A stretch of DNA of 38,027 bases, taken from positions 1 through 38,027 of the IMG/VR virus record IMGVR_UViG_3300005910_000015, one strand, 5' to 3'. This DNA comes from a virus. Under the pieces are notes generated by a model, which saw only the letters and a program-made list of their open reading frames with translations, was not told where the DNA came from and searched no databases. The translations under genes were made by a program, and so were the position numbers. Shown here piece by piece: positions 2,600 to 21,062 of the stretch (within the stretch, counting starts at the first letter, position 1; the number at the start of each line of letters is the position of its first letter).

Positions 2600-2911
2600 A
2601 TGGTTATAAATGAACATGGTAATTTAGTAGATAAAGAATCTGCAGGAAATGGATATCATGGTAGATGCGAGTATTGTAAAATAGCTTTAGTTACTGATTT
2701 AGGTTATTGCAGTTGGGATGGTGTAAAATGTATTGATAGAGAAATTCAATATGAAAATGAAATACCTAAAGAAATAAAATCTTATGCTAAATTTAAATCT
2801 TTATTATGGGATAGAAAGAAAAAAATATTTGTAAAACCATACACAAATGATGAATATACTCTTGATCAAATAAATGAAATAGTTAAACAATTAAATGAAA
2901 AAAGTAATTAA
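2600..2911 (+). CDS. Small protein with Cys pair
   Basis: Unrecognised 103-residue protein. CEYC near residues 24-27 and further Cys at CSW and KCID suggest a possible metal site, but the spacing fits no family I can name. The C-terminal third is helical and charged. It starts two bases after pth2 ends and stops 10 bases before the receptor gene. Confidence 0.6.
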   Translation: MVINEHGNLVDKESAGNGYHGRCEYCKIALVTDLGYCSWDGVKCIDREIQYENEIPKEIKSYAKFKSLLWDRKKKIFVKPYTNDEYTLDQINEIVKQLNEKSN

Positions 2912-2921
2912 ACTTAAAATC

Positions 2922-5540: not shown

Positions 5541-6566
5541 ATGATAAAAGGATTTATAACAGGCTCATTTAGACCCTTTCATAAAGGTCACGAAGCATTG
5601 ATTGATTATGCAAAGACCAATTGTGATGAATTAACTATTTTTATTACAACATTACCAGATGAAACAATCCCTTACAAATATCGCCTTAAATGGGTTTTAA
5701 GCACATATCTTGATGATCCTAAGGTAACTATTGTATCTGATACAATAAATGAACCCAACTTAACAGGTGACGCCCTATCTATTTGGTGGGGTTTTTATAT
5801 TAAAAATAAATACGGGAATTTTGATAGAGTATTTACATCAGAAAATTATGGATATGTATTTGCAGAATCAATGGGTGCAACACATTATTCATTTAATTTT
5901 GATCGAACAAACATTCCTATAAGTGCTACTAAAATAAGAAAAAAACCAATAACAAATTGGGATTATTTAAATAACTTTGCTAAAGACTTTTTTGTGAAAA
6001 AAATTGCTATAATAGGAACTGAATCAACAGGTAAAACAGTATTATGTAAACATTTAGCTAAACATTATAATACTTCATGGGCACCTGAAGCTGGAGATGA
6101 AATTGTCTCTAATACTAATGATGCAAAAGATATTGATATTATTAGATTAATAGGAAAAGAGCATGCTAAAAATATTATTAAACATACTCGCCAAGCCAAT
6201 AAAGTATTATTTGTTGATACTGATATGAATATTACGAAATCATACGCTAAATTTTTATGTGATGAAGATGTTGAATTTGAACCATGGATTAATAAAGCAA
6301 ACGAAATTGATTTATACATTCATTTAGATTCAAGCGCTCCTTTTGTTCAAAATGGAAGAAGATTAGAAAATAATCAACGTTTAGAATTAGAAAAATTTCA
6401 TCTAAAACAATTTGAATTAGCTAATATAGAATTTAAAACATTTTCATTTAAACCAGTAACTATAAAACCAAGACCTAAACATTATGCTGATATTGTAAAT
6501 CGTCATTACAATGAAAGAACAGACAATATTATTAATTACATTGATTTATTTTTATCTAAATACTAA
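5541..6566 (+). CDS. nadR: NadR-like NMN adenylyltransferase / ribosylnicotinamide kinase
   Basis: A two-domain NAD salvage enzyme of 341 residues. The N-terminal nucleotidyltransferase has the GSFRPFHKGH start with the HxGH motif at 14-17 and ISATKIR at 127-133, the two ATP-binding signatures of NMN adenylyltransferases. The C-terminal domain has a P-loop GTESTGKT at 159-166 followed by a HLAKHY helix and LFVDTDMNITKSYAKFL, as in the ribosylnicotinamide kinase half of NadR. The helix-turn-helix repressor domain of enterobacterial NadR is absent, so it is an enzyme only. With pncB upstream it forms a split NAD salvage module. Whether the first domain accepts NaMN, made by PncB, or only NMN cannot be read from sequence. 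Confidence 0.93.
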   Translation: MIKGFITGSFRPFHKGHEALIDYAKTNCDELTIFITTLPDETIPYKYRLKWVLSTYLDDPKVTIVSDTINEPNLTGDALSIWWGFYIKNKYGNFDRVFTSENYGYVFAESMGATHYSFNFDRTNIPISATKIRKKPITNWDYLNNFAKDFFVKKIAIIGTESTGKTVLCKHLAKHYNTSWAPEAGDEIVSNTNDAKDIDIIRLIGKEHAKNIIKHTRQANKVLFVDTDMNITKSYAKFLCDEDVEFEPWINKANEIDLYIHLDSSAPFVQNGRRLENNQRLELEKFHLKQFELANIEFKTFSFKPVTIKPRPKHYADIVNRHYNERTDNIINYIDLFLSKY

Positions 6567-8582: not shown

Positions 8583-8613
8583 TTTTTTTATTAAAAATAA
8601 AGTTGTATATTTG
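8583..8613 (+). promoter_or_regulatory. Promoter of the first tRNA array leader
   Basis: A T-run ending in A (8583-8590) lies 23 bases before TATATTTG (8606-8613), which matches the Bacteroidota -7 element TAnnTTTG. The same T-run-to-box distance recurs at five other sites in the window. The transcript would begin near 8618 and carry the leader ORF at 8694. Confidence 0.7.
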
Positions 8614-8693
8614 CAATCTTAATAAATAATTATTTACATTTAGTTAAAACTTTTAGAAAAAAATTCATAATATATAATAAAAATAAAAACACG

Positions 8694-8789
8694 ATGAAAA
8701 ACAGAAAAAATATAGCAAATTGGATGGTAGCGGATAATGCTGGCAGAGGAGATAAGCTATGTCCTGTTGATCCTTATATAAAAATTTAG
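8694..8789 (+). CDS. Leader peptide of the first tRNA array (31 aa)
   Basis: An ATG-started 31-codon ORF between the promoter and an intrinsic terminator. Its codons cover every amino acid of the recognised tRNAs in the array below: Lys 4, Asn 4, Ala 3, Asp 3, Gly 2, Val 2, Trp 1, and Met besides the start. It uses codons that are otherwise scarce here (GCG, GGC, AAG, CTA). Bases 8762-8771, inside the Cys-Pro-Val-Asp codons, can pair with 8810-8819, which includes the 5' arm of the terminator. This is the layout of an attenuator leader. Function is inferred. Confidence 0.6.
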   Translation: MKNRKNIANWMVADNAGRGDKLCPVDPYIKI

Positions 8790-8812
8790 TAAATTTTTAA
8801 TAATATAAAATC

Positions 8813-8846
8813 AACGGGAAATCTTAAAAAGTTTTCCCGTTTTTTA
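8813..8846 (+). terminator. Intrinsic terminator / attenuator of tRNA array 1
   Basis: Stem ACGGGAAA with TTTCCCGT, about 11-base loop, followed by a T-run. It sits between the leader ORF and the first tRNA, so readthrough must be regulated for the array to be expressed. Confidence 0.8.
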
Positions 8847-8855
8847 TTTAATAAC

Positions 8856-8877
8856 AAATAGTTCATTGACATCTTGA
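8856..8877 (+). promoter_or_regulatory. boxA-like element before tRNA array 1
   Basis: TAGTTCATTGACATCTTGA, preceded by AA. The same element, with two differences, stands 8 bases before the tRNA-His at 18649. It resembles the boxA-like sequence in front of rRNA genes (GTTCWTTGA core). It lies 10 bases after the terminator and 7 bases before tRNA-Lys. Confidence 0.6.
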
Positions 8878-8884
8878 CATAAAT

Positions 8885-8955
8885 AACCTCGTAGCAAAAC
8901 GGCCATGCTCCGCCCTTTTAAGGCGGTTAAGTGAGTTCGACTCTCACCGGGGTTA
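8885..8955 (+). tRNA. tRNA-Lys(TTT)
   Basis: Acceptor AACCTCG with CGGGGTT, D-stem GCA/TGC, anticodon arm CCGCC-CTTTTAA-GGCGG, T-arm GTGAG-TTCGACT-CTCAC, discriminator A. First tRNA of the array. Confidence 0.92.
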
Positions 8956-9000
8956 CAATGCACCAAACTTATAATGAATATATAAAATAAAGGGTTTTAA

Positions 9001-9333
9001 ATGAAAAATTGTAAATGGTGTAATAAAGAATATGATAATGGATTAAAATTAGCAGGTCATCAAACATGATGTGTTAAAAATCCTAATATATCAAAAACTA
9101 AAGCAAAAATATCAATCAATAGTAAAAAATTAAAGCATATTCAAGAAACTAAAGATAAAATTTCAAAAATTAGAAAAAAATATTTAATGTTAAATTCTAA
9201 TATAGATTTTTCTAAATTTGGTTGGGTTAAACAAGTATCATTTATTATAAATATACATTCATCAAAGGTATCTCAATTTATGAAAAAATATATGTTTGAT
9301 TTTTATATTAATAATTGTTTTAGACGCAAATAA
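9001..9333 (+). pseudogene. Zinc-finger phage protein interrupted by TGA
   Basis: A 110-codon frame from ATG 9001 to TAA 9331 carries one in-frame TGA at 9067-9069. Before it stands CKWCNKEYDNGLKLAGHQT, after it CVKNPN, which together form a C2HC zinc finger; Trp (TGG) would fit the interrupted position. The remainder is basic and ends FGWVKQV...FYINNCFRRK, a tail I associate with phage DNA-binding proteins near homing genes. A single G-to-A change explains the break. No tRNA with anticodon TCA is seen. Confidence 0.65.
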
Positions 9334-9386
9334 ATTAAAACAGGGGTTTTTTCATTTCCTTTAAATTGAAGTCAAAAAATGAAAAC

Positions 9387-9460
9387 GCAGGTAACGCATA
9401 AATGGTGGTGCGCTAGCCTTCCAAGCTGGAATAGACTCGGTTCGATCCCGTGTACCTGCT
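9387..9460 (+). tRNA. tRNA-Gly(TCC)
   Basis: Acceptor GCAGGTA with TACCTGC, anticodon arm CTAGC-CTTCCAA-GCTGG, T-loop TTCGATC with one mismatch in the T-stem, discriminator T. Confidence 0.88.
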
Positions 9461-9465
9461 CAAAA

Positions 9466-9560
9466 TCGTAGTAACGGAAAGAGATACTTCGTGCTTTTGT
9501 AAGCAATTTGAATTCCAATCAAACTTCGCGGTTAGAATCCGCCTGTTAACCTCTTCTATT
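9466..9560 (+). other. Degenerate tRNA-Gly(TCC)-like element
   Basis: Contains a perfect anticodon arm TTTGA-ATTCCAA-TCAAA (9508-9524), a D-like stem TGC/GCA without the GG pair, and a T-arm GCGG-TTAGAAT-CCGC whose loop has A in place of C56. No convincing acceptor stem is present. Its 5' part carries the AGTAAC...TACTTCGT hairpin repeat also found at 10704. Probably a decayed tRNA. Confidence 0.5.
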
Positions 9561-9576
9561 TTTCTCGATTTTAATT

Positions 9577-9651
9577 GGTGTCGCATCATATTTGGTGCAT
9601 GCTGCCACCTTGTCACGGTGGAAATTGCGGGTTCGAATCCCGTCGGCACCG
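9577..9651 (+). tRNA. tRNA-Asp(GTC)
   Basis: Acceptor GGTGTCG with CGGCACC, anticodon arm CCACC-TTGTCAC-GGTGG, T-arm GCGGG-TTCGAAT-CCCGT, discriminator G as expected for Asp. Confidence 0.92.
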
Positions 9652-9701
9652 CATTATATTCAGTAAAGCCTCTTTCTTTTGAAACGTAACTGAATAAATT
9701 T

Positions 9702-9779
9702 GGTTCTATGTGCTCGACTGGCGAACGGGATTTAGACTGTCACTATACAAAAACGAGGGTTCGAATCCCTCTAGAACCG
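9702..9779 (+). tRNA. tRNA with Tyr-like body, anticodon uncertain (GTC?)
   Basis: Acceptor GGTTCTA/TAGAACC and T-arm GAGGG-TTCGAAT-CCCTC are perfect, and the D-arm CTCG-ACTGGCGAA-CGGG resembles tRNA-Tyr. The loop CTGTCAC would give GTC, but its stem has two mismatches. Possibly a decaying tRNA-Tyr. Confidence 0.6.
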
Positions 9780-9827
9780 CTAGATATGATCATTAAGATT
9801 CGTTCTATTGAAATAATATCAAAGGTT

Positions 9828-9852
9828 TTATTGTTTTCCAGGAAAACAATAA
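9828..9852 (+). other. Perfect hairpin before tRNA-Val
   Basis: TTATTGTTTT pairs with AAAACAATAA around a CCAGG loop, two bases before the tRNA. There is no T-run after it, so it is more likely an RNA-processing structure than a terminator. Confidence 0.55.
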
Positions 9853-9854
9853 CT

Positions 9855-9929
9855 GGTCCCTTGGCTCAGCTGGTTTAGAGTGATTGTTTTACATGCAATA
9901 GATCGATGGTTCGACTCCATCAGGGATCA
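9855..9929 (+). tRNA. tRNA-Val(TAC)
   Basis: Acceptor GGTCCCT with AGGGATC (one G-U), D-arm GCTCAGCTGGTTTAGAGT, anticodon arm ATTGT-TTTACAT-GCAAT, T-arm GATGG-TTCGACT-CCATC, discriminator A. Confidence 0.92.
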
Positions 9930-9931
9930 CA

Positions 9932-10012
9932 ATAACAATGTTAAACTTAACACTCTAGTTGGTTGTACTAAGGTAATCCTTATATACAACAGGACAGTAT
10001 GGTCATTGTTAT
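9932..10012 (+). other. Structured RNA element between tRNA-Val and tRNA-Trp
   Basis: An outer 9-bp stem ATAACAATG (9932-9940) with CATTGTTAT (10004-10012) encloses GTTGTA/TACAAC (9962-9967/9985-9990), which holds an inner TAAGG-TAAT-CCTTA hairpin. The size is that of a tRNA, but there is no T-arm or anticodon arm. Identity unknown. Confidence 0.5.
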
Positions 10013-10016
10013 AATT

Positions 10017-10089
10017 AGGTCATTGGTGTAATTGGCAACATAACGGTTTCCAAAACCGCAGAGTGGGGGTTCGATTCCCTCATGGCCTG
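10017..10089 (+). tRNA. tRNA-Trp(CCA)
   Basis: Acceptor AGGTCAT with ATGGCCT, anticodon loop TTCCAAA on an ACGGT/ACCGC stem, T-arm GGGGG-TTCGATT-CCCTC, discriminator G. Confidence 0.92.
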
Positions 10090-10096
10090 CCAAATT

Positions 10097-10171
10097 GGCC
10101 CCTTAGCTCAGATTGGCTAGAGCACCACATTTGCATTGTGGGAGTCATCGGTTCGAGTCCGATAGGGACCA
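10097..10171 (+). tRNA. tRNA-Ala(TGC)
   Basis: Anticodon arm CCACA-TTTGCAT-TGTGG, D-arm GCTC...GAGC, T-arm ATCGG-TTCGAGT-CCGAT, discriminator A. The acceptor GGCCCCT/AGGGACC has a C-A mismatch where tRNA-Ala normally has G3-U70. Confidence 0.85.
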
Positions 10172-10191
10172 CTCGAGAATAAATTAATAAA

Positions 10192-10249
10192 CGGTCTTAA
10201 ATATAACCATGGTTGGAAGTATCCCAGGTTCGAATCCTGGTGGGACCGC
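10192..10249 (+). other. Truncated tRNA-like element (acceptor and T-arm only)
   Basis: Acceptor CGGTCTT with GGGACCG (two G-U) and a perfect T-arm CCAGG-TTCGAAT-CCTGG, but only about 24 bases between them, too few for both D- and anticodon arms. No 7-base anticodon loop can be formed. Confidence 0.5.
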
Positions 10250-10255
10250 TAAACG

Positions 10256-10316
10256 TAGTGAGATAAGAGTTTCATCGATGGTTTATCATAGGTTCGAATC
10301 CTATTATTTCTGCTTA
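10256..10316 (+). other. Second truncated tRNA-like element
   Basis: Perfect T-arm ATAGG-TTCGAAT-CCTAT and a partly paired acceptor (GAGATA with TATTTC), with about 22 bases between. Begins with CGTAGTGAGATAAGAG, related to the hairpin repeat at 9468 and 10702. Not a complete tRNA. Confidence 0.45.
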
Positions 10317-10370
10317 AGAAGTATTATATTAAACTCTTTTCATTTTTTCTCGTTTTATTTTTAAAAATAT

Positions 10371-10401
10371 TTTTTATTTTAATTAAAATATATTATATTA
10401 G
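10371..10401 (+). promoter_or_regulatory. Promoter with near-leaderless start
   Basis: TTTTTA at 10371-10376 lies 23 bases before TATATTAG (10394-10401). The ATG at 10406 is at about the expected transcription start, so the mRNA may be leaderless. Confidence 0.5.
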
Positions 10402-10405
10402 CTAA

Positions 10406-10615
10406 ATGAAAATTAAATCTTTTTTATCTAAATGGGTTTTTACAAAAACATTTTTAAAAGAATGTTTAATTATATTAGTCACTGCATTATGTTGGTCTGG
10501 TATAATATTATTCTTAAAAAATGTATTTCCATTATTTTATTATTTAACAGATGAAAGTAAAATATTATTAATATTAGTTGGTTATTTTACAGCTTTAATT
10601 ATTAATAAAAAATAA
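10406..10615 (+). CDS. Small two-span membrane protein
   Basis: Unrecognised 69-residue protein with two hydrophobic segments (about 18-38, CLIILVTALCWSGIILFL, and 50-66, KILLILVGYFTALII). It lies inside the tRNA array, 5 bases after a promoter and 5 bases before tRNA-Asn, so its transcript would run into the tRNAs. Confidence 0.65.
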   Translation: MKIKSFLSKWVFTKTFLKECLIILVTALCWSGIILFLKNVFPLFYYLTDESKILLILVGYFTALIINKK

Positions 10616-10620
10616 AATTC

Positions 10621-10694
10621 GCCTCAGTAGCTCAGTTGGCCAGAGCAGTAGACTGTTAATCTATTGGTCGAAGGTTCGAATCCTTCTTGAGGCG
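10621..10694 (+). tRNA. tRNA-Asn(GTT)
   Basis: Acceptor GCCTCAG with TTGAGGC, anticodon arm GTAGA-CTGTTAA-TCTAT, T-arm GAAGG-TTCGAAT-CCTTC, discriminator G. All arms are canonical. Confidence 0.94.
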
Positions 10695-10701
10695 CAAAAC
10701 T

Positions 10702-10812
10702 GTAGTAACATAAAGAGTTACTTCGTAGCAATCCAAGCCGGAAAGTTTAGGTTAAATTCCTAGAATCCCCTTCCAAAATATATAGGGGATTAGTGTAAGT
10801 AACACGCCGTAG
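10702..10812 (+). other. tRNA-like element in permuted order
   Basis: After hairpin AGTAAC-ATAAAGA-GTTACT (10704-10722) comes a T-arm TTAGG-TTAAATT-CCTAG (10747-10763), then an acceptor-like 3' strand and CCA (10773-10775), an 8-base linker, a matching 5' strand AGGGGAT (10784-10790), TA, and a D-like stem GTGT/ACAC. This is the 3'-half-then-5'-half order of permuted tRNA genes. I cannot find a convincing anticodon stem, so it may be a relic. Confidence 0.4.
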
Positions 10813-10869
10813 AAAAAATGCTCTAATGAATTTTCTCAGTTTTTTAATATAAATTCTATTAAGTAACAA

Positions 10870-11088
10870 ATGGAAGAAGAAAAAAGATTAAAACCATTAA
10901 ATCATTTATCTAAAGAAGATAATAAAGTTTTATGTAGAATGTTTAATACACATGAAATTATTGATTTTGTAAATTGGCATTTAAAAGTACATAAAATTGA
11001 TGATCGATTTAATTTAGAAAATTTAGAATTAATTAAAAGTTTTTTAAATAAAAAATCACTCGAAGAATGGGATGATCATATGAAATAA
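10870..11088 (+). CDS. Small helical protein
   Basis: Unrecognised 72-residue charged protein, all helical in appearance (LSKEDNKVLCRMFNTHEIIDFVNWHLKV). It stands alone between tRNA genes, 2 bases before tRNA-Ala. No signal or membrane segment. Confidence 0.6.
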   Translation: MEEEKRLKPLNHLSKEDNKVLCRMFNTHEIIDFVNWHLKVHKIDDRFNLENLELIKSFLNKKSLEEWDDHMK

Positions 11089-11090
11089 TT

Positions 11091-11165
11091 GGGAACGCAT
11101 GTACCAATGGCAGGCGATATTGGTTTGCAACCAACATGTGGAGGGTTCGATTCCCTTCGTTTCCA
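11091..11165 (+). tRNA. tRNA-Ala(TGC), second copy
   Basis: Acceptor GGGAACG with CGTTTCC, including the G3-U70 pair that marks tRNA-Ala. Anticodon loop TTTGCAA on TTGG/CCAA, T-arm GAGGG-TTCGATT-CCCTT, discriminator A. The D-arm is irregular. Confidence 0.82.
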
Positions 11166-11224
11166 CTTTATTAAAACTTTTAGTATAATACATAATATAA
11201 ATATTATAAATGATTAAAAAATAT

Positions 11225-11332
11225 ACGGAAATAGCTCAGGGTAGAGCACCAATATCAAAGACTAGTTAATATACATGTTAAAACCTAGTTTGCAGTGAGG
11301 GAGTCGGTAGGTTAAAGTCCTATCTTTCCGTA
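11225..11332 (+). tRNA. tRNA-like with 35-nt insertion, anticodon probably TGC
   Basis: Acceptor ACGGAAA/TTTCCGT and D-arm GCTC-AGGGTA-GAGC are canonical. A roughly 35-base insertion, itself able to form ACTAG...CTAGT, precedes an anticodon arm CCTAG-TTTGCAG-TGAGG with one mismatch. The T-loop is TTAAAGT, with A for C56, on a 6-bp stem. Could be an interrupted or decaying tRNA. Confidence 0.5.
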
Positions 11333-11339
11333 CCAATAT

Positions 11340-11414
<75 letters not shown>

Positions 11415-11415
11415 A

Positions 11416-11480
11416 AAAGAGATGTTCTAAATAAGTAAGTTGCAAATCATCCGCAAGGAATACAGTAACACATCTTTTTA
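11416..11480 (+). other. Hairpin element between the two CAT tRNAs
   Basis: AGATGT with the preceding A/G bases pairs with ACATCTTTTT over about 10 bp, enclosing TTGC-AAATCATCC-GCAA. It has tRNA-like size but no T-arm. It ends in a short T-run and could be a weak terminator or a tRNA relic. Confidence 0.4.
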
Positions 11481-11487
11481 AAAATAT

Positions 11488-11556
11488 TGCGGGGAGTTCA
11501 GGTGAACCTTTAGGCTCATAACCTAAATTAGGAGGGATCGTTACCTTCCCCCGCTA
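11488..11556 (+). tRNA. tRNA-Met(CAT)-like with aberrant D and T loops
   Basis: The acceptor TGCGGGG/CCCCGCT equals that of the initiator tRNA upstream, including the T-T first pair. Anticodon arm TTAGG-CTCATAA-CCTAA. The D-loop is only 4 bases and the T-loop is ATCGTTA. It looks like a diverged copy of the initiator; CCA is not encoded. Confidence 0.6.
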
Positions 11557-11567
11557 CTAAGTTATAT

Positions 11568-11750
11568 CTCGGAATAATATATAACGTTGACATTTGTCTG
11601 TTTAACTTATATAAATGATATTGGGAGAATATTAGAAATTTATATATATATATTTATTAGCTAAATATATAAAAAAATTTTATTCTAAATAAATTATGAA
11701 ATGGCAATAAAATTTCAAATTGAATGGTGGTTCGATTCCATCTTCCGAGA
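11568..11750 (+). other. Interrupted tRNA-like element
   Basis: Acceptor strands CTCGGAA (11568-11574) and TTCCGAG (11743-11749) are perfectly complementary and a canonical T-arm GGTGG-TTCGATT-CCATC precedes the latter. Between them are about 150 very AT-rich bases, with a D-loop-like AATGGCAATAA near 11699-11710. No anticodon arm can be assigned. Either an insertion in a tRNA or two separate relics. Confidence 0.4.
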
Positions 11751-11799
11751 CAATTATTAATCATATTGGTTAATATAAATTAAAGTAAATTAAAGTAAA

Positions 11800-11991
11800 A
11801 TGCAAAGAGGAAAAGTAAAATTTTTTAATGAAACTAAAGGTTTTGGATTTATTAAAGATAATGATTCTGCTAGTGAATATTTTGTTCATGTAACAGGATT
11901 AATTGATCAAATTAAAGAAGATGATGAAGTAAGTTATGATTTAAAGGAAGGTCGTAAAGATCTTAATGCTGTGAATGTAAAATTAGTTTAA
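11800..11991 (+). CDS. Cold-shock domain protein
   Basis: A 63-residue single cold-shock domain that binds single-stranded RNA or DNA as a chaperone. It starts GKVKFFNETKGFGFI with RNP1 at 13-18, has RNP2-like YFVHVT at 27-32 and the closing pattern EVSYDLKEGRKDLNAVNVKL. Length equals bacterial CspA-type proteins. Placed among tRNA genes, it could help keep phage transcripts open, which is inference. Confidence 0.93.
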   Translation: MQRGKVKFFNETKGFGFIKDNDSASEYFVHVTGLIDQIKEDDEVSYDLKEGRKDLNAVNVKLV

Positions 11992-12005
11992 AAAATATTC
12001 TTTAA

Positions 12006-12027
12006 ATGGAGATTTAACTATCTCCAT
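12006..12027 (+). other. Perfect hairpin before tRNA-Lys
   Basis: ATGGAGAT pairs with ATCTCCAT around a 6-base loop, 2 bases before the tRNA, with no T-run after it. It has the same placement as the hairpin before tRNA-Val (9828-9852), so it may be a processing signal. Confidence 0.5.
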
Positions 12028-12029
12028 CT

Positions 12030-12105
12030 GGTTTCTTAGCTCAGCAGGCAGAGCAACGCCCTTTTAAGGCGTGGGTCCAGGGTTCGAATCCCTGAGGGAC
12101 CACCA
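12030..12105 (+). tRNA. tRNA-Lys(TTT), second copy, with encoded CCA
   Basis: Acceptor GGTTTCT with AGGGACC (two G-U), D-arm GCTC...GAGC, anticodon arm ACGCC-CTTTTAA-GGCGT, T-arm CCAGG-GTTCGAA region canonical, discriminator A followed by CCA. Confidence 0.92.
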
Positions 12106-12198
12106 AATAATTTCAATTTATATCCTTATCCAAATAACGCAAATAACGAAGGAGCAAAAGAAATTGAGTATGAATTAAATAGTATAGAAAAACAATAA
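12106..12198 (+). pseudogene. Possible C-terminal remnant of a gene
   Basis: The stretch reads in one frame as about 30 polar residues ending EYELNSIEKQ and a TAA, but has no start codon and runs back into the tRNA. It may be the tail of a gene whose front was lost when the tRNA was inserted. Weak evidence. Confidence 0.25.
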
Positions 12199-12202
12199 GT
12201 GA

Positions 12203-12886
12203 ATGGAGAATAACAAACAACAACAATTAAAAATAGTATTTTGTTTGCCAGGAAATAATTTTTCTGGAAATTTTTTAGATTGTTGGTCTGATTTTTTACA
12301 TAATTGTATACTATATAATATTCAATATTATATTTCTAGAAAAGAATCAAACAATATTTACTATGTAAGAAATATGTGCTTAGGTGGATCTGTTGTAGGA
12401 GGAAAAAATCAAAAACCATTTAACAATATTGATTATGATTATATGATGTGGATTGATAGTGATCAAATATTTAATTTTGAACAATTTCATACATTATTAG
12501 TTAAAGCACTAGAAGATGACTCTATTGATATACTGTCAGGTATGTATCTTATGTCAAATGGCATACAATTAGCAACAGTAAAAAATTGGGATATAGAATA
12601 TTTTAAAAAGAATAAAACATTTAAATTTTTAAAACTTAAAGATATTAAAGATAAAAAAGAATTAATAAAAGTAGATTATACTGGATTAGGTTTTACTTTA
12701 GTAAAAAAAGGAGTATTTGAATCCATGGAATATCCATGGTTTTATCCAATGAAACAAGAAATAGATAATATGGTTGATTTTAGTATGGATGATGTTTCAT
12801 TTTGTTTAAGAGCAAAAAAATTAGGATATAAAACATTAGTTGATCCTACTATAATAGTAGGACATGAAAAAAAACTTATTTTATAG
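12203..12886 (+). CDS. GT-A type glycosyltransferase
   Basis: Likely transfers a sugar from a nucleotide sugar, either to phage DNA or capsid or to a host polymer. The 227-residue product has the phage GT-A layout: N-terminal Rossmann strand IVFCLPG, a mid-protein DYDYMMWIDSDQIF with the metal-binding DxD at 85-87, and DYTGLGFTLVKKGVFE then DDVSFCLRAKKLGYKTLVDPTIIVGHE near the end, typical of GT2-like enzymes. Ends in TAG directly before the next ATG. The acceptor is unknown. Confidence 0.82.
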   Translation: MENNKQQQLKIVFCLPGNNFSGNFLDCWSDFLHNCILYNIQYYISRKESNNIYYVRNMCLGGSVVGGKNQKPFNNIDYDYMMWIDSDQIFNFEQFHTLLVKALEDDSIDILSGMYLMSNGIQLATVKNWDIEYFKKNKTFKFLKLKDIKDKKELIKVDYTGLGFTLVKKGVFESMEYPWFYPMKQEIDNMVDFSMDDVSFCLRAKKLGYKTLVDPTIIVGHEKKLIL

Positions 12887-13333
12887 ATGAAGCAAACAAG
12901 AGAATTGGCTAGATTTATTTTTGAAAAATCTGAATATTTTGTTTCAGTTGATTTAGAAACTACAAATTTTGGTATAATTGTTTTTCCCGCTTTTGGTATA
13001 ACAACTAAAACATCTAAACGAAAACATGGCAAAAAATTAGATGATAAATTTGATGTTCACTATAATCTGATTAAAGTTAATAATGTTCATACATTATATA
13101 AAAAAATATTTAGAATATTCGATGATTTTTTAAAGGATTATGATTTTGTTGCAATAAGTGCTAATAAAAATGCTCAGGCACAAAGAGAACGAATTTATGT
13201 AACAGCACTCGAAAAAATGGGATTTAAAACTACATATATTGAAGATTTTATTGAGGGAAATGAATATTTTATGAGTAAAAAACCAATTAAAAAGAAATTA
13301 CTTATTAAATACTATTTGCAATATGAATCATAA
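12887..13333 (+). CDS. Unknown conserved-looking phage protein
   Basis: A 148-residue protein with an N-terminal domain (VSVDLETTNFGIIVFPAFG) and a C-terminal block FVAISANKNAQAQRERIYVTALEKMGFKTTY that resembles the R-x-x-Y-x(3)-L-x(2)-GF helix common in phage acyltransferase-like proteins. No catalytic residues can be assigned. It starts on the base after the glycosyltransferase stop. Confidence 0.6.
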   Translation: MKQTRELARFIFEKSEYFVSVDLETTNFGIIVFPAFGITTKTSKRKHGKKLDDKFDVHYNLIKVNNVHTLYKKIFRIFDDFLKDYDFVAISANKNAQAQRERIYVTALEKMGFKTTYIEDFIEGNEYFMSKKPIKKKLLIKYYLQYES

Positions 13334-13637
13334 TTTATATTTCTTAGATAGAACTTTATTTGCTACAGGATATGAACGAATTGTTCATGGTGGAAAGGGT
13401 GACTATATAGAATTAAAAAAAGAACAAATAAAAGTTAAATTAAAATCTCGTTTTAATCAACAATTACCTGATACTTTATCAAATGAAACTTTTTATTATT
13501 ATTGGTTAGAAGTAGAAAATAGAAATGAAAAAATATACTGGCAATGTAATCTAGTAAATTATGCTGATTATAAGAGAAATTTTTATTATATTAGCCCTAG
13601 TTTATTATTAAATTTTAATAACATTGAATTATTTTAA
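13323..13637 (+). CDS. Unknown phage protein
   Basis: A 104-residue protein with TGYERIVHGGKGDYIELKKEQI near the start and an aromatic C-terminal half (FYYYWLEVENRNEKIYWQ). The first block looks like a family seen widely in phages, but I know no function. Overlaps the previous gene by 11 bases. Confidence 0.62.
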   Translation: MNHNLYFLDRTLFATGYERIVHGGKGDYIELKKEQIKVKLKSRFNQQLPDTLSNETFYYYWLEVENRNEKIYWQCNLVNYADYKRNFYYISPSLLLNFNNIELF

Positions 13638-13665
13638 TAAATAAAATAAAATAATAATATAAGTA

Positions 13666-14025
13666 ATGAATGTAGATGATTTAAATATTAGTTATACACG
13701 TGGTTCTGGACCAGGTGGCCAACATAAAAACAAAGTTGAAACATGTGTTGTTATAGTCCATGTACCTACTAATACTAAGGAAAGATGTCAAGATACTCGT
13801 AGTAGAGCTAGAAATTTATCAATTGCATTAGATCGGTTAAAAAAAAAGCTTGAGAAAAAACAAAATGAACAACTTAAAAAATTAAAGGCTGAACAACGTA
13901 TAGACCTTATTAAACATCAAACAGTAACTAGAACATATAATTATACTAGAAATGAAGTATATGATCACAGGACAAAAACTAAACATGATTTAAAAAAATT
14001 CATGAAAGGAGAAATCGATATATGA
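13666..14025 (+). CDS. Release-factor GGQ domain protein
   Basis: A 119-residue protein consisting only of the peptidyl-hydrolase domain of class I release factors. The catalytic loop TRGSGPGGQHKNKVET has GGQ at 17-19, and the C-terminus TRTYNYTRNEVYDHRT matches the end of the RF1/RF2 catalytic domain. The stop-codon-reading domain is missing, so it would act without codon choice, as in ribosome rescue. It lacks the extended basic tail that ArfB inserts into the mRNA channel, though a Lys-rich middle helix is present. The following gene overlaps in an ATGA. It forms a cluster with ribosomal protein bS21. Confidence 0.9.
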   Translation: MNVDDLNISYTRGSGPGGQHKNKVETCVVIVHVPTNTKERCQDTRSRARNLSIALDRLKKKLEKKQNEQLKKLKAEQRIDLIKHQTVTRTYNYTRNEVYDHRTKTKHDLKKFMKGEIDI

Positions 14026-14213
14026 CAACAGCAGTAGATAAAAACAGATTACAAGGCGAAGTTATTGTGGATGATAAAAAATTAATTGAATTTGGAAATT
14101 CTTATGTTTTTTATGAGATTAAAGATAATGATCTTTATGTCCATATACAAGAACTTGATGATAAAAACGTCATACAAAAAGATGTTAAACTTTATATAAA
14201 AAAACCATGTTAA
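14022..14213 (+). CDS. Unknown small protein
   Basis: Unrecognised 63-residue protein, beta-rich in appearance (EVIVDDKKLIEFGNSYVFYEIKDNDLYVHI). It overlaps both neighbours (ATGA with the release-factor gene, 7 bases with bS21), so it sits in a translational operon. Confidence 0.6.
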   Translation: MTTAVDKNRLQGEVIVDDKKLIEFGNSYVFYEIKDNDLYVHIQELDDKNVIQKDVKLYIKKPC

Positions 14214-14398
14214 AAGTAAAAGTAAGAAATGGAGAAATTGAAAAAGCTCTAAAGCAAATTAAAAGAAAGTTTATTGCAACAAAAGTTGTTAGAGAAGTAA
14301 GAGAGCGGTCTCAATTTACTAAAAAATCTACATTACGTAGAGATGAAGTAAAAAAAGCAAGATATATTCAGAAATTAAGAGACATAGAAAGAGATTAA
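14207..14398 (+). CDS. rpsU: Ribosomal protein bS21
   Basis: A 63-residue basic protein matching the Bacteroidota form of bS21: LKVKVRNGE-IEKALKQIKRKF, then TKVVREVRERSQFTKKS and YIQKLRDIERD. bS21 sits on the 30S platform beside the 3' end of 16S rRNA, and in Bacteroidota it takes part in hiding the anti-Shine-Dalgarno sequence. No Shine-Dalgarno sequence precedes this ORF, unlike the host rpsU where one is known to be conserved. A phage bS21 could replace the host copy and bias initiation to phage mRNA, as proposed for other large phages. Confidence 0.9.
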   Translation: MLKVKVRNGEIEKALKQIKRKFIATKVVREVRERSQFTKKSTLRRDEVKKARYIQKLRDIERD

Positions 14399-14406
14399 TA
14401 AATAAT

Positions 14407-14481
14407 GCCCCGGTAGCTCAATTGGATAGTAGCAACAGATTTCTAATCTGTAGGTTTTGGGTTCGAGTCCCAATTGGGGTA
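14407..14481 (+). tRNA. tRNA-Arg(TCT)
   Basis: Acceptor GCCCCGG with TTGGGGT (several G-U), anticodon arm ACAGA-TTTCTAA-TCTGT, T-arm TTGGG-TTCGAGT-CCCAA, D-loop with GGAT as in Arg tRNAs, discriminator A. Confidence 0.92.
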
Positions 14482-14493
14482 CTAAAAATCAAT

Positions 14494-14565
14494 GCGAATG
14501 TAGCTCAGCGGTAGAGCATTACGTTGCCAACGTAGAGGTCGTGGGTTCGAATCCCATCACTCGCT
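14494..14565 (+). tRNA. tRNA-Gly(GCC)
   Basis: Acceptor GCGAATG with CACTCGC (one mismatch), D-arm GCTCAGCGGTAGAGC, anticodon arm TTACG-TTGCCAA-CGTAG, T-arm GTGGG-TTCGAAT-CCCAT, discriminator T. Confidence 0.92.
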
Positions 14566-14580
14566 CAAAATTTTATTATT

Positions 14581-14808
14581 ATGAAAAATTTATTTATTAA
14601 ATTTAGTTTGTTATTAATATTAATAACATTTATTAATTATTTAATATTTGCTTGGGTTGGATTAATATCATGTATATTTGGGGCTGATTCACTTTATTTT
14701 TGTGGAAAATATTGTTGTTTTGTAAAAATATTTGCTTCTATTACATATTTAGGTTGGCTTATATTTTTTATAAAAAAAATAATAAATAAACGAAAAGAAA
14801 AACAATAA
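14581..14808 (+). CDS. Small two-span membrane protein with Cys cluster
   Basis: Unrecognised 75-residue protein with hydrophobic segments at about 8-33 and 45-65 and Cys residues between them (SCIFGADSLYFCGKYCCF). Basic tail KKIINKRKEKQ suggests the C-terminus stays in the cytoplasm. It lies between two tRNA genes. Confidence 0.62.
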   Translation: MKNLFIKFSLLLILITFINYLIFAWVGLISCIFGADSLYFCGKYCCFVKIFASITYLGWLIFFIKKIINKRKEKQ

Positions 14809-14813
14809 TATAT

Positions 14814-14896
14814 TGCGACGTGACAGAGAGGCCAATTGTGCTCGGCTCATATCCGAGTTCCGCAAGGTATCGCCGGTTCGACTCCGGTCGTCGCAA
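14814..14896 (+). tRNA. Class II tRNA with CAT anticodon and Ser-like body
   Basis: Acceptor TGCGACG/CGTCGCA, D-arm ACAGAGAGGCCAATTGT as in tRNA-Ser, anticodon arm CTCGG-CTCATAT-CCGAG giving CAT, and a 14-base variable arm containing CC-GCAA-GG. T-arm GCCGG-TTCGACT-CCGGT, discriminator A. The body and the anticodon point to different amino acids. Confidence 0.75.
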
Positions 14897-14931
14897 CTAA
14901 AAGTATTTTAAATTAGGTTAAATAATAAAAT

Positions 14932-18399: not shown

Positions 18400-18430
18400 T
18401 TTTTTATATCAAAACTTTTATATATATTTG
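18400..18430 (+). promoter_or_regulatory. Promoter of the second tRNA array leader
   Basis: TTTTTTA at 18400-18406 lies 23 bases before TATATTTG (18423-18430), followed by C, as at 8606. It drives the leader ORF at 18486 and the tRNA array from 18649. Confidence 0.7.
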
Positions 18431-18485
18431 CTATATAATTTAAGAAAAAGAAAAAATTAAAAATAAATCTTTAATAAATAATAAA

Positions 18486-18542
18486 ATGAAACGTACAATT
18501 ATACATATTAGTAGCTCGATTATATCACATAAATGTGGGTGA
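18486..18542 (+). CDS. Leader peptide of the second tRNA array (18 aa)
   Basis: The product MKRTIIHISSSIISHKCG has 5 Ile, 4 Ser, 2 His, 1 Thr and 1 Arg among its 17 residues after Met. The array downstream carries three Ile, three Ser, one His, one Thr and one Arg tRNA. Codons ATT, ATA, CAT, AGT, AGC, TCG and TCA are all read by those tRNAs. The stop codon lies inside TGACTTTCT (18540-18548), which can pair with GGAAAGTCG (18583-18591) and so break the terminator. This fits an attenuator leader. Confidence 0.68.
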   Translation: MKRTIIHISSSIISHKCG

Positions 18543-18576
18543 CTTTCTAATGTATAAATTTTAAATAAGAAATTTT

Positions 18577-18609
18577 AAAAAGGGAAAGTCGAAAGATTTT
18601 CCCTTTTTT
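18577..18609 (+). terminator. Intrinsic terminator / attenuator of tRNA array 2
   Basis: AAAGGGAAA pairs with TTTCCCTTT around a loop of about 10 bases, followed by a T-run. It lies between the leader ORF and the boxA-like element, as in array 1. Confidence 0.8.
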
Positions 18610-18618
18610 GTTTTAATT

Positions 18619-18640
18619 AAATAGTTCATTGATATATTGA
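18619..18640 (+). promoter_or_regulatory. boxA-like element before tRNA array 2
   Basis: TAGTTCATTGATATATTGA preceded by AA, 20 of 22 bases equal to the element at 8856-8877. It is 10 bases after the terminator and 8 bases before tRNA-His, the same spacing as in array 1. Confidence 0.6.
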
Positions 18641-18648
18641 AAATAAAT

Positions 18649-18722
18649 GGTGATTATAGCTCAATTGGTGGAGCGCCAGAGTGTGGTTCTGGAGGTTGCG
18701 AGTTCGAACCTCGTTTTTCACC
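18649..18722 (+). tRNA. tRNA-His(GTG)
   Basis: Anticodon arm CCAGA-GTGTGGT-TCTGG, D-arm GCTCAATTGGTGGAGC, T-arm GCGAG-TTCGAAC-CTCGT. The extra 5' G faces C73, the His identity pair. Two T-T mismatches occur in the acceptor stem. Confidence 0.88.
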
Positions 18723-18764
18723 CGTGTACTTTTGGTATAAGATATATAAAATAAAATATATTTT

Positions 18765-19421
18765 ATGCCAAGAAAGCAAAAACAATATCATTTTATTTAT
18801 AAAACGACTTGTTTAATAACAAATAAGTATTATATTGGAATGCACTCAACAAATAATTTAAATGATGGTTATTTAGGAAGTGGTAAACGATTAAAATATT
18901 CTATTAATAAATATGGGAAAAAAAACCATAATAGAAAAATAATAGAATATTTAGAATCTAGGGAAAAATTAAAAGATAGAGAATTTGAAATAATAACTGA
19001 AGATTTATTAAATGATTTTTATTGTATGAATTTAACATATGGTGGTAATGGAAATTGGGATTATTTAAATAAAAATAGTAATATTCAAAGAGCAAAGGGA
19101 TTAAAGGGAAATATTAAAATGAAATGGCTTAGGGAAAATGATTTAAATTGGAAAAAAACAAATTATAAAAATTTATCAAATGGTCAATTAAAAACTTATA
19201 AAAATGGAAGAATTCCTAATACACCAAATTGGTTAGGAATGACACATTCTGAAGAAACAAAGAAAAAAATTGGGTTTGCAAATTCAATAAGTCAAAAGGG
19301 AAACAAAAATTCTCAATATGGAACTTGTTGGATAACAAATGGAAAAGAAAGTAAAAAAATAAATAAGGGAGATCTAGTTCCAAATGGTTGGAGATTAGGT
19401 AGAAAAATAATAAAATGGTAA
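18765..19421 (+). CDS. GIY-YIG homing endonuclease
   Basis: A 218-residue protein with the GIY-YIG core: HFIYKTTCLITNKYYIGMHS (FIY at 10-12, YIG at 23-25), YLGSGKRLKYSINKYG and the later ESREKLKDREFEII. The C-terminal part has LGMTHSEETKKKIGFANS and GTCWITNGKESKKINKGDLVPNGWRLGRK, the NUMOD-type DNA-binding units of Seg-like enzymes. T4 also keeps a Seg endonuclease in its tRNA region. Its stop codon lies inside the acceptor stem of the following tRNA-Ser, so the gene is fused tightly to the array. Confidence 0.92.
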   Translation: MPRKQKQYHFIYKTTCLITNKYYIGMHSTNNLNDGYLGSGKRLKYSINKYGKKNHNRKIIEYLESREKLKDREFEIITEDLLNDFYCMNLTYGGNGNWDYLNKNSNIQRAKGLKGNIKMKWLRENDLNWKKTNYKNLSNGQLKTYKNGRIPNTPNWLGMTHSEETKKKIGFANSISQKGNKNSQYGTCWITNGKESKKINKGDLVPNGWRLGRKIIKW

Positions 19422-19506
19422 GTGTAGCAGCTACATGGAGTAGCGACTGGCGTTGAATACCAGACAGCGGGTTATGCCGCTCGGGGGTCGGGTCCTCCTC
19501 TTACCT
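19417..19506 (+). tRNA. tRNA-Ser(TGA)
   Basis: Class II: variable arm AGCGG-GTTATG-CCGCT. Anticodon loop GTTGAAT on CTGG/CCAG. Acceptor GGTAAG/CTTACC. D-arm GCTAC-ATGGA-GTAGC and the T-arm are atypical. Its first bases contain the TAA stop of the GIY-YIG gene. Confidence 0.8.
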
Positions 19507-19510
19507 CTAT

Positions 19511-19582
19511 GGTCTTTTAGTTTAATAGGTAAAACATATCTCTGGTACAGATAAGCATCCAGTTCGATTCTGGAATTGACCT
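19511..19582 (+). tRNA. tRNA-Thr(GGT)
   Basis: Anticodon arm TATCT-CTGGTAC-AGATA, D-arm GTTT-AATAGGTA-AAAC, T-arm TCCAG-TTCGATT-CTGGA. Acceptor GGTCTTT/ATTGACC has two mismatches. Confidence 0.87.
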
Positions 19583-19588
19583 CAAAAT

Positions 19589-19662
19589 AGTAATATAGCT
19601 CAATTGGTTGGAGCGCGAAGCTTATATCTTCGAGGTCGTGGGTTCGAATCCCACTATTACTA
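19589..19662 (+). tRNA. tRNA-Ile(TAT)
   Basis: Acceptor AGTAATA/TATTACT, D-arm GCTC-AATTGGTTG-GAGC, anticodon arm CGAAG-CTTATAT-CTTCG, T-arm GTGGG-TTCGAAT-CCCAC, discriminator A. Reads ATA without needing lysidine. Confidence 0.94.
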
Positions 19663-19667
19663 CAATT

Positions 19668-19744
19668 CGGTACATATACCCTCCGGCTGATATCCGGTTG
19701 AAAGGTTATTTGGTTACAGGATGGTTCGACTCCATCTGTACCGA
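19668..19744 (+). tRNA. Rearranged tRNA-Ile(GAT)-like gene
   Basis: Acceptor CGGTACA/TGTACCG and T-arm GATGG-TTCGACT-CCATC are perfect, and the anticodon arm CCGG-CTGATAT-CCGG gives GAT. Only 7 bases separate acceptor and anticodon arm, so there is no D-arm there, while 21 bases follow the anticodon arm and contain a D-loop-like TATTTGGTTA. The tRNA-Arg at 20746 has the same layout. Confidence 0.7.
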
Positions 19745-19748
19745 CTAC

Positions 19749-19831
19749 GGAAGAGTGGCGCAGCGGTAACGCAGCAGTTTGCTAAACTGTACAAGGTAAC
19801 ACTTGCGAGGGTTCGAATCCCTTTTCTTCCT
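19749..19831 (+). tRNA. tRNA-Ser(GCT)
   Basis: Class II: variable arm CAAG-GTAACA-CTTG. Acceptor GGAAGAG/TTCTTCC, D-arm GCG...CGC, anticodon arm GCAGT-TTGCTAA-ACTGT, T-arm GAGGG-TTCGAAT-CCCTT. Confidence 0.92.
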
Positions 19832-19860
19832 CTATAAATAAACAAAAAGTAAAACAAAAC

Positions 19861-19968
19861 ATGAAAAAACTATTAGCTGATCAAAAATTAGTAAGATCTT
19901 ATTTAAGAAAAGAAATTACATTAGCTGAATTAGAAAAAAATGGTATTAAACTAAAAATGCCTATTTAA
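19861..19968 (+). CDS. Small 35-residue protein
   Basis: MKKLLADQKLVRSYLRKEI and a short helical remainder, ending in PI. A TATAAATA at 19833-19840, the T4 late promoter consensus, lies 20 bases upstream. Too short to assign, but it starts with ATG and sits between a tRNA and the HNH gene. Confidence 0.5.
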   Translation: MKKLLADQKLVRSYLRKEITLAELEKNGIKLKMPI

Positions 19969-19973
19969 AAATT

Positions 19974-20267
19974 ATGGTAAAAAGTAAAATAATATGTGAG
20001 TTATGTGGTACTAAAAATATTTGTACCTTTCATCATTTAATTCCAAGATGTTTACATACAAATAAATGGTTTAGAAGGAATTTTACAAGAGAACAAATGA
20101 ACGAAGGTATTATGGTATGCAAATATACATGCCACAGAGAAATACATAATTTAGAAAATAATAAAAATTTAGGTAAATATTATAATACAAAAAAATTATT
20201 ATTATCACACTTTTTAATTAACAAATATATTAAATGGAAAAATAGTCAAGCAGTACGATGTACATAA
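19974..20267 (+). CDS. HNH endonuclease
   Basis: A 97-residue HNH nuclease with CELC (C8, C11), TFHHLIPR (H20, H21) and CKYTCHREIH (C49, C53, H54, H58), giving two metal-binding Cys pairs around the beta-beta-alpha fold. This small form with HHLIPR...W...M is common as a free-standing homing enzyme in phages. Placed inside the tRNA array as a second likely mobile gene. Confidence 0.87.
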   Translation: MVKSKIICELCGTKNICTFHHLIPRCLHTNKWFRRNFTREQMNEGIMVCKYTCHREIHNLENNKNLGKYYNTKKLLLSHFLINKYIKWKNSQAVRCT

Positions 20268-20290
20268 ATATATAAATAAAAATGTATATA

Positions 20291-20740
20291 ATGAAAGCTA
20301 AAAAAATATTTGAAAATTTAAATGATATGTTAAAACCTAAAGAATTATCTTCTACTGAAATTGATAACTGGAATAATATAAACTTTCAGAAAGAATTATA
20401 TAATGCCATCGAAACAACAGGAGAAGATTATTGGGAATGTCATCCTAGAACAGAGGGAGATATTAATATAAACGAAATAGAGCATATTCTATCATTAGGA
20501 ATAACTGTTATAAATGATCATATAGAAATAGCATGTATGTTTTTTATTCCAGATGTTATTGAAACATTATTAAATTCAAATAATATAGAACATATTAATA
20601 CAAGTGAATGTATTAGTATTATAACAAGAAATTATAATAATTTAATAAATAATGTAGATTATGGAGAATATGAATGGGATCAAATAACAAATGATAAAGA
20701 TAATTCTATAAATCTTCTTGTTAATCATATTCAAAAATAA
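20291..20740 (+). CDS. Unknown ankyrin-like protein
   Basis: A 149-residue acidic protein. The start MKAKKIFENLNDMLKPKE resembles MKLSDILKPKS of the gene at 29568, and HILSLGITVINDHIEIACMFFIPDVIETLLNS looks like an ankyrin-type helix pair. An ATG at 20282 would add three residues; I prefer 20291 by similarity. Confidence 0.6.
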   Translation: MKAKKIFENLNDMLKPKELSSTEIDNWNNINFQKELYNAIETTGEDYWECHPRTEGDININEIEHILSLGITVINDHIEIACMFFIPDVIETLLNSNNIEHINTSECISIITRNYNNLINNVDYGEYEWDQITNDKDNSINLLVNHIQK

Positions 20741-20745
20741 AAAAT

Positions 20746-20822
20746 GCCTGAGTATTGGCCTGGTCTTCGGAACCAGAGACGCATAATGGATGAAAATGTG
20801 GGTTCGACCCCCACCTCAGGTT
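20746..20822 (+). tRNA. Rearranged tRNA-Arg(TCG)-like gene
   Basis: Acceptor GCCTGAG/CTCAGGT, anticodon arm CTGGT-CTTCGGA-ACCAG and T-arm GTGGG-TTCGACC-CCCAC are sound. As in the gene at 19668, only 7 bases lie before the anticodon arm and 21 after it, the latter with CAT-AATGG-ATG, which resembles an Arg D-loop (GGA). Confidence 0.72.
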
Positions 20823-20827
20823 CATCA

Positions 20828-20913
20828 GGAAGATTGCCAGAGTGGTCTATTGGAACGGCTTGGAAAGCCGTGGTCGTTAACACGGCCCGTTGGTTCGAAT
20901 CCTACATCTTCCT
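20828..20913 (+). tRNA. tRNA-Ser(GGA)
   Basis: Class II tRNA with acceptor GGAAGAT/ATCTTCC, anticodon arm ACGGC-TTGGAAA-GCCGT, a long variable arm around TTAA, and T-arm GTTGG-TTCGAAT-CCTAC with one mismatch. Confidence 0.92.
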
Positions 20914-20928
20914 CTAAAAATATTACAT

Positions 20929-21002
20929 GGACAAGTAGCTCAATTGGTTAGAGCATCTGACTGATATTCAGAAGGTTGAAGGTTCGATTCCTTTTTTGTC
21001 CA
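20929..21002 (+). tRNA. tRNA-Ile(GAT), normal order
   Basis: Acceptor GGACAAG/TTTGTCC, D-arm GCTC-AATTGGTTA-GAGC, anticodon arm TCTGA-CTGATAT-TCAGA, T-arm GAAGG-TTCGATT-CCTTT, discriminator A. Last tRNA of the array. Confidence 0.94.
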
Positions 21003-21020
21003 CTTTTTAACATTTTTTTT

Positions 21021-21052
21021 AAACTCAAAATTTTTAGTTTTGGGTTTTTTTT
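21021..21052 (+). terminator. Terminator closing the tRNA array
   Basis: AAACTCAAAA pairs with TTTTGGGTTT (one G-U) around TTTTTAG, followed by eight T. The T-run in its loop doubles as the upstream part of the next promoter. Confidence 0.82.
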
Positions 21053-21062
21053 ATTATATTTG
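21031..21062 (+). promoter_or_regulatory. Promoter overlapping the array terminator
   Basis: TTTTTA (21031-21036, the terminator loop) lies 24 bases before TATATTTG (21055-21062). The first ATG is at 21071, so the leader is only a few bases long. Confidence 0.65.

Follow-up and report, generated by a model that had tools for sequence, protein, structure and literature searches.

Candidate leader-peptide attenuators upstream of tRNA arrays in phages of Bacteroidota

Attenuation of amino-acid operons in enterobacteria (trp, his, ilvGMEDA, leu, thr, pheST) uses a leader ORF with control codons, a terminator, an antiterminator exclusive with it and a characteristic stalling geometry, all of which are shared by the phage loci described here. 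What sets the phage loci apart from the enterobacterial operons is that tRNA genes are the output, that the product feeds the sensor directly, and that up to about 12 amino acids are sampled per leader, and the sequence comparisons below strongly support a reading of these loci as ribosome-mediated attenuation in this new setting. Among open-licence full texts, the nearest prior report that we found describes putative leader-peptide attenuators in amino-acid biosynthesis operons of Flavobacterium psychrophilum (PMC9723704), which have the host phylum, promoter type and proposed mechanism in common with ours but are chromosomal biosynthesis operons, not phage tRNA arrays. T-box riboswitches also sense tRNA charging and control a terminator, as proposed here, but they bind the tRNA directly and have no ORF, and the window, the whole 38,027-nucleotide stretch of viral DNA that we analyzed, has no Rfam match to a T-box (stem I specifier loop, T-box antiterminator). 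Phage tRNAs have been proposed to restore pools depleted by tRNA-cleaving defences (PMC10264068, PMC11555353); the available parts of these two papers concern the tRNAs themselves, and the terms "attenuat" and "leader" are absent from the available text of PMC10264068. The earlier note on this DNA knew of no attenuator described for a phage tRNA array, and we likewise found none in the open-licence full texts.

The window comes from a viral contig with a G+C content of about 25%, whose capsid protein shares 46% identity with its counterpart in Prevotella Lak megaphages. The second of its two tRNA arrays had been read in the earlier note as controlled by a leader-peptide attenuator tuned to its own tRNAs. 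The array 2 unit (18423-21053) runs in the order promoter, 18-codon leader, antiterminator strand, intrinsic terminator, boxA-like site, tRNAs:

18423 to 18430, plus strand: promoter box TATATTTG, a Bacteroidota-type -7 element upstream of leader 2, identified from sequence
18486 to 18542, plus strand: leader ORF 2, MKRTIIHISSSIISHKCG, from ATG to TGA, which fits array 2
18495 to 18530, plus strand: sensor codons of leader 2, T I I H I S S S I I S H, matching array 2 at 12/12 and array 1 at 0/12
18540 to 18548, plus strand: antiterminator strand TGACTTTCT, overlapping the leader 2 stop codon and pairing with the terminator arm
18577 to 18608, plus strand: intrinsic terminator of array 2, -17.6 kcal/mol, followed by a T run; its 5' arm (18583-18591) is the antiterminator partner
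18623 to 18640, plus strand: boxA-like element AGTTCATTGATATATTGA, which closely resembles AGTTCATTGACATATTGGA of Bacteroidota rRNA operon spacers
18650 to 21003, plus strand: tRNA array 2, with His, Thr, Ile, Ser, (Arg), Ser and Ile (ARAGORN, Rfam)
21022 to 21053, plus strand: likely terminator ending array 2, AACTCAAAA..TTTTGGGTTTTTTTT, identified from sequence

The core of the earlier description of this unit held. The 18-codon leader is present; I, S, H, T and R make up 13 of the 17 residues that follow its Met, and this ORF is the only one of the 224 ATG ORFs of 15-40 codons on both strands of the window to reach that value. The pairing claimed between the stop-codon region and the terminator is also there, with a duplex of TGACTTTCT and GGAAAGTCG (18583-18591) at -11.2 kcal/mol compared with -5.2 kcal/mol for dinucleotide shuffles (p=0.005), and the terminator placed before the array is the hairpin and T run listed above, with AGTTCATTGA lying between it and the tRNAs. 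A promoter before the leader had been claimed as well; it is not of E. coli sigma-70 type, and the TAnnTTTG box at 18423-18430, of Bacteroidota type, is the likely one. Consensus sigma-70 promoters were no more frequent than in shuffles. The tRNA content was confirmed in part. ARAGORN calls His(gtg), Thr(ggt), Ile(tat), Ser(gct), Ser(gga) and Ile(gat), and Rfam adds a further tRNA at 20746-20822, which by eye is Arg(tcg), but the "Ile 3, Ser 3" of the earlier note requires 19417-19505 (by eye Ser(tga)) and 19664-19744 (by eye Ile(gat)), which neither ARAGORN nor Rfam calls. Uncalled tRNA-like sequences, some with long variable arms, also occur at 9468-9555 and 11224-11331, and all four may be either odd-shaped real tRNAs or decayed ones. 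One codon of leader 2 fits poorly: ACA (Thr) is a codon that Thr(ggt), the threonine tRNA of array 2, would not decode. The array itself is broken up by a homing endonuclease gene and small ORFs.

When the window was searched against itself with the array 2 element, 8790-8884 was found to be 73% identical to 18555-18648 and to lie directly before array 1. Array 1 (8606-12105), which had been overlooked in the first reading, has the same architecture with a wholly different leader:

8606 to 8613, plus strand: promoter box TATATTTG, upstream of leader 1, identified from sequence
8694 to 8789, plus strand: leader ORF 1, MKNRKNIANWMVADNAGRGDKLCPVDPYIKI, which fits array 1
8718 to 8753, plus strand: sensor codons of leader 1, N W M V A D N A G R G D (NWMVADNAGRGD), matching array 1 at 12/12 and array 2 at 1/12
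8763 to 8771, plus strand: antiterminator strand CCTGTTGAT of leader 1, with its partner ATCAACGGG at 8810-8818
8813 to 8841, plus strand: intrinsic terminator of array 1, within the 8790-8884 similarity to array 2
8860 to 8877, plus strand: boxA-like element AGTTCATTGACATCTTGA of array 1
8885 to 14897 (whole array), plus strand: tRNA array 1, first block Lys, Gly, Asp, Asp, Val, Trp, Ala, Asn, Ala, Met, Lys
within 8885 to 14897, plus strand: remainder of tRNA array 1, beyond an interruption by protein genes, Arg(tct), Gly(gcc), Met

The CCTGTTGAT/ATCAACGGG duplex has -15.2 kcal/mol compared with -7.3 kcal/mol for shuffles (p=0.005), and among the 224 like-sized ORFs of the window the value of each leader is reached by that leader only.

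Other genes of the window are worth recording. A gene of the NAPRTase family (nicotinamide phosphoribosyltransferase, PHROG) at 123-1331 and a nicotinamide-nucleotide adenylyltransferase-like gene at 5541-6566, both upstream of array 1, are likely an NAD+ rebuilding pair; such pairs occur in phages that counter NAD+-depleting defence. Within array 1 there is a cold-shock domain protein gene (11800-11991), and proteins with this domain can act as antiterminators in E. coli. A TonB-dependent receptor gene with plug and barrel (2895-4886) is unusual for a phage contig. The gene adjoining array 2 had no relatives in the viral contigs searched, and the array region as a blastn query matched mostly tRNAs.

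To obtain more loci, we screened viral contigs for T runs with a boxA-like site after them. A mechanical pipeline, blind to tRNA identities, then took the first tRNA of a cluster, the last terminator at most 400 nt upstream, and the longest ATG ORF of 10-70 codons ending at most 60 nt from the terminator, which yielded 46 dereplicated leader/array pairs. In these 46 loci the leaders match their own arrays at 0.566, compared with 0.390 for permuted arrays (z=12.4, 0/20000), and frames +1 and +2 of the same leader DNA have no match (z=-1.5 and -0.1). A held-out set of 16 further dereplicated loci, from a scan without the terminator requirement and with settings unchanged, gave z=4.7 (0/20000) with the other frames null; in that scan, a terminator and ORF were found at 32 of the 52 arrays with at least three tRNAs. 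The comparison of leader composition with tRNA content that the earlier note had proposed thus shows tracking in unrelated phages, and in no frame but the coding one. For Leu, Ser, Arg and Ile, the codon classes also track the isoacceptors of the array (128/187, with 0.531 expected; 0/3000). Three loci that passed the pipeline look false (L118, L461, L382); they were kept in the 46-locus match, pairing, codon-class and first position statistics and left out of the pooled analysis of 59 loci.

Individual leaders illustrate the match: MKNLMNINPQQHPQTLEWGFYA precedes a Pro3 His2 Gln3 array, MKNLLDILMVVLDAVLWAADEDRLCSVG precedes Asp2 Glu2 Val2 Leu Ala Trp, and MYSLNIHTTINNTICNKKQN... precedes Asn2 Thr3 Lys2 Ile Met. 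Related leaders keep their composition and scramble its order, as in LLDILMVVLDAVLWAADED and LLETLLVAMVADLLWLDAED before Asp/Glu/Val/Leu/Ala/Trp arrays. The leaders are not conserved as proteins, since tblastn against phage records returned only chance matches or Lightbulbvirus isolates whose own leaders were among the queries. For about one quarter of the sensor residues no corresponding tRNA was found in the array, which is due in part to arrays truncated at contig ends or to odd tRNAs that ARAGORN misses. With the Bacteroidota-type consensus of PMC9723704, 35 of the 59 loci have a promoter box TANNTTTG no more than 130 nt before the leader ATG, where 4.8 are expected. From the promoter type, the boxA and the cultured relatives we infer that the host phylum of the contigs, as a group and not contig by contig, is Bacteroidota.

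In nearly all of the 46 loci, the terminator's 5' arm forms a predicted duplex with the 3' part of the leader, at a mean of -15.5 kcal/mol compared with -9.1 for shuffled sequences and -9.5 for the arms of other loci (z=-15.8 against the latter, 0/20000), and the pairing is individually significant (p<=0.05) in 37/46. The arms are highly variable (CCCGAAC, CCCCATTC, ACCGTTGG, GGGAAAGTC, ATCAACGGG), so the pairing is maintained through changes in both partners, and the compensatory change that the earlier note had looked to is thus present. The loci differ from trp in two ways: most of the antiterminator strand falls within the leader, and a protector (1:2) pause hairpin was not found (mean z -0.22, 59 loci), so an untranslated leader would be predicted to leave the array on. 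The protector hairpin is a feature of trp that is absent from some attenuators, so we do not count its absence against membership in the class.

The position of the matching codons is informative. In the 46 loci, codons -15 to -4, counted back from the antiterminator strand, match the array at 0.65-0.78. The value drops to 0.48 for codons -3 to -1 and is no better than chance in the strand and beyond it (0.41, 0.36 and 0.38, with 0.38 expected). Pooling of 59 loci gave z=14.8 in the sensor window and z=0.7 from codon -2 onward, in bins chosen after the 46-locus profile was known and with largely the same loci. Stalling predicts such a boundary, because any ribosome that halted less than about 12 nt away would cover the strand, and we know of no alternative explanation for a match boundary upstream of the antiterminator strand.

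Phages with several arrays provide an internal control, and in them the array's own leader beats the other in 36 of 42 comparisons. The cultured Cellulophaga phages phi4:1 and phi38:1 (region 35283-38800 of NC_021796) each have three tandem units, with the amino acids split into three sets. In phi4:1, MKIQRLHLQELEQPIISGGTGV precedes Pro Glu Gln His Leu Leu Arg(acg), VQLTKTGITVIDKTKGARAYLGDTVIG, inside the annotated gp075, precedes Ala Lys Ile Gly Met Asp Thr Val Arg(tct) Met, and MKTNYCTYNNSNWSFSYDTGS... precedes Tyr Ser Asn Trp Phe and a Cys called by eye. Leader by segment, the matches out of 12 are 11/2/0, 2/10/1 and 0/1/11 in phi4:1, counting that Cys in the third set, and 10/1/1, 0/12/0 and 1/0/12 in phi38:1, where the second leader scores 9/12 without Tyr, Trp and Cys, which ARAGORN does not call. 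Although phi38:1 belongs to a different family, its three units have nearly the amino-acid sets of phi4:1 in a different order, as if the segments of L463 (phi4:1) and L636 (phi38:1) were moving as modules.

The gp075 of phi4:1 (12990-13109 in L463, 87989-88108 in NC_021788.1) and its phi17:2 counterpart gp077 are both annotated as hypothetical proteins; most likely they are the attenuator leader, with the annotated start placed too far upstream, across the promoter box. Unlike phi4:1, phi17:2 (L618) has no tRNA-Lys gene, and the Lys codons are kept in its leader, so the tracking of array by leader is not immediate, and the two phages are a natural case of lag between array and leader. In Lak-A1 there are two likely units (L639, L640), where ORFs fitting their own tRNAs and long, weakly G+C terminators precede the arrays. 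Lak phages are said to use TAG as a sense codon, so a different code may be needed for Lak leaders. Six control arrays from beyond this group (crAss001, phage G, K5, ZC08, XbC2, T4) had no unit; crAss001, considered as a candidate, has no leader and has a promoter-like box directly before its first tRNA. No convincing unit was found in Tenacibaculum phage pT24 and no tRNA match in PTm1.

The boxA-like site resembles an element, AGTTCATTGACATATTGGA, that many rRNA operons of Bacteroidota have in the spacer from tRNA-Ala to 23S rRNA. This resemblance makes Nus-type antitermination of a long array reasonable to propose, and by this analogy the site probably recruits a Nus antitermination complex for the long untranslated array. 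It was not seen after the first terminator of phi4:1, so boxA is not universal, and its frequency in our loci is biased because all viral scans used the element.

Could a real attenuator instead sense amino acid supply, that is, charging, during host starvation, which would make the arrays starvation-response genes? Leader-peptide attenuation classically reports charging, the amino-acid operons of F. psychrophilum show signs of it (PMC9723704), and an uncharged tRNA and a missing one look the same in sequence. On the other hand, extra tRNA genes do not cure a lack of amino acid, and the codon class tracks the isoacceptor of the array and not the amino acid alone, with CGT and AGA in phi4:1 leaders whose segments have Arg(acg) and Arg(tct); we consider this explanation unlikely. 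Stalling might also affect RNA stability or the processing of the tRNA precursor instead of termination, as the same geometry would allow other readouts, but the antiterminator opposes a hairpin and T run before non-coding genes, and tRNAs have no translation to regulate, which makes this quite improbable.

The remaining explanations dispense with the attenuator. That the ORF is a small functional protein gene preceding the tRNAs by happenstance would agree with the annotation of one phi4:1 leader as a hypothetical protein (gp075); it is hardly credible given that leader order is scrambled while composition is kept and that the C-terminal part is set by RNA pairing. We give practically no weight to an ordinary terminator or processing site that follows a chance ORF in AT-rich DNA, with a match that is coincidental or reflects phage-wide composition: Ile, Ser, Lys and Asn codons do abound at about 25% G+C, but the permutation, frame, held-out and within-genome swap tests, and the 1/224 ORFs, contradict it.

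Our preferred explanation is that each array is one transcription unit under ribosome-mediated transcription attenuation, turned on by scarcity of a sampled tRNA, and on the comparative sequence tests, which support the attenuator reading of array 2 given in the earlier note, we consider this very probable. The loci combine in-frame control codons, an intervening terminator, a compensated and mutually exclusive antiterminator and a stall geometry, with translation of the leader predicted. At the level of sequence statistics, the matching of leader and array in frame, the matching of isoacceptor classes, the co-variation of antiterminator and terminator and the position of the sensor codons are shown. 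RNA polymerase would start at the TAnnTTTG promoter and a ribosome would enter the short leader. With an ample, charged supply of every sampled tRNA, it would translate to the leader end and cover the antiterminator strand (at the last codons or stop), so that the terminator hairpin forms and the array is off. If any one sampled tRNA is scarce, the ribosome would stall at its codon, at least 4 codons before the antiterminator strand, which would be free to pair with the 5' arm of the terminator and let the polymerase read into the tRNA genes. Since the product of the array feeds the sensor, negative feedback is implied, and the loop would close when the new tRNAs restore translation of the leader. 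The model supposes that a stall would turn the array on and that transcription and translation would be coupled, and gives boxA a putative role; the purpose may be to restore tRNAs lost to host defence or host shut-off, or to match supply to demand.

In some phages the amino acids are spread over three modules, and nearly the same sets recur across phage families. We lean towards a family of tRNA-shortage sensors in Bacteroidota phages, from marine Cellulophaga phages to Lak megaphages, whose modular leaders would act as OR gates over sets of amino acids, turning on replacement tRNAs whenever the pool is drained by the host or by host defences, and shutting themselves off once the supply is restored. 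The reason for phage tRNA arrays, codon supplement or counter-defence, has been debated for decades. If the model is true, the phage itself reveals which shortage an array answers, and when, and the question would be directly testable in the cultured phages phi38:1 and phi4:1. It would also provide a rule for finding hidden leader genes missed by annotation, extend attenuation to non-coding genes, and make these leaders a natural multi-input tRNA sensor.
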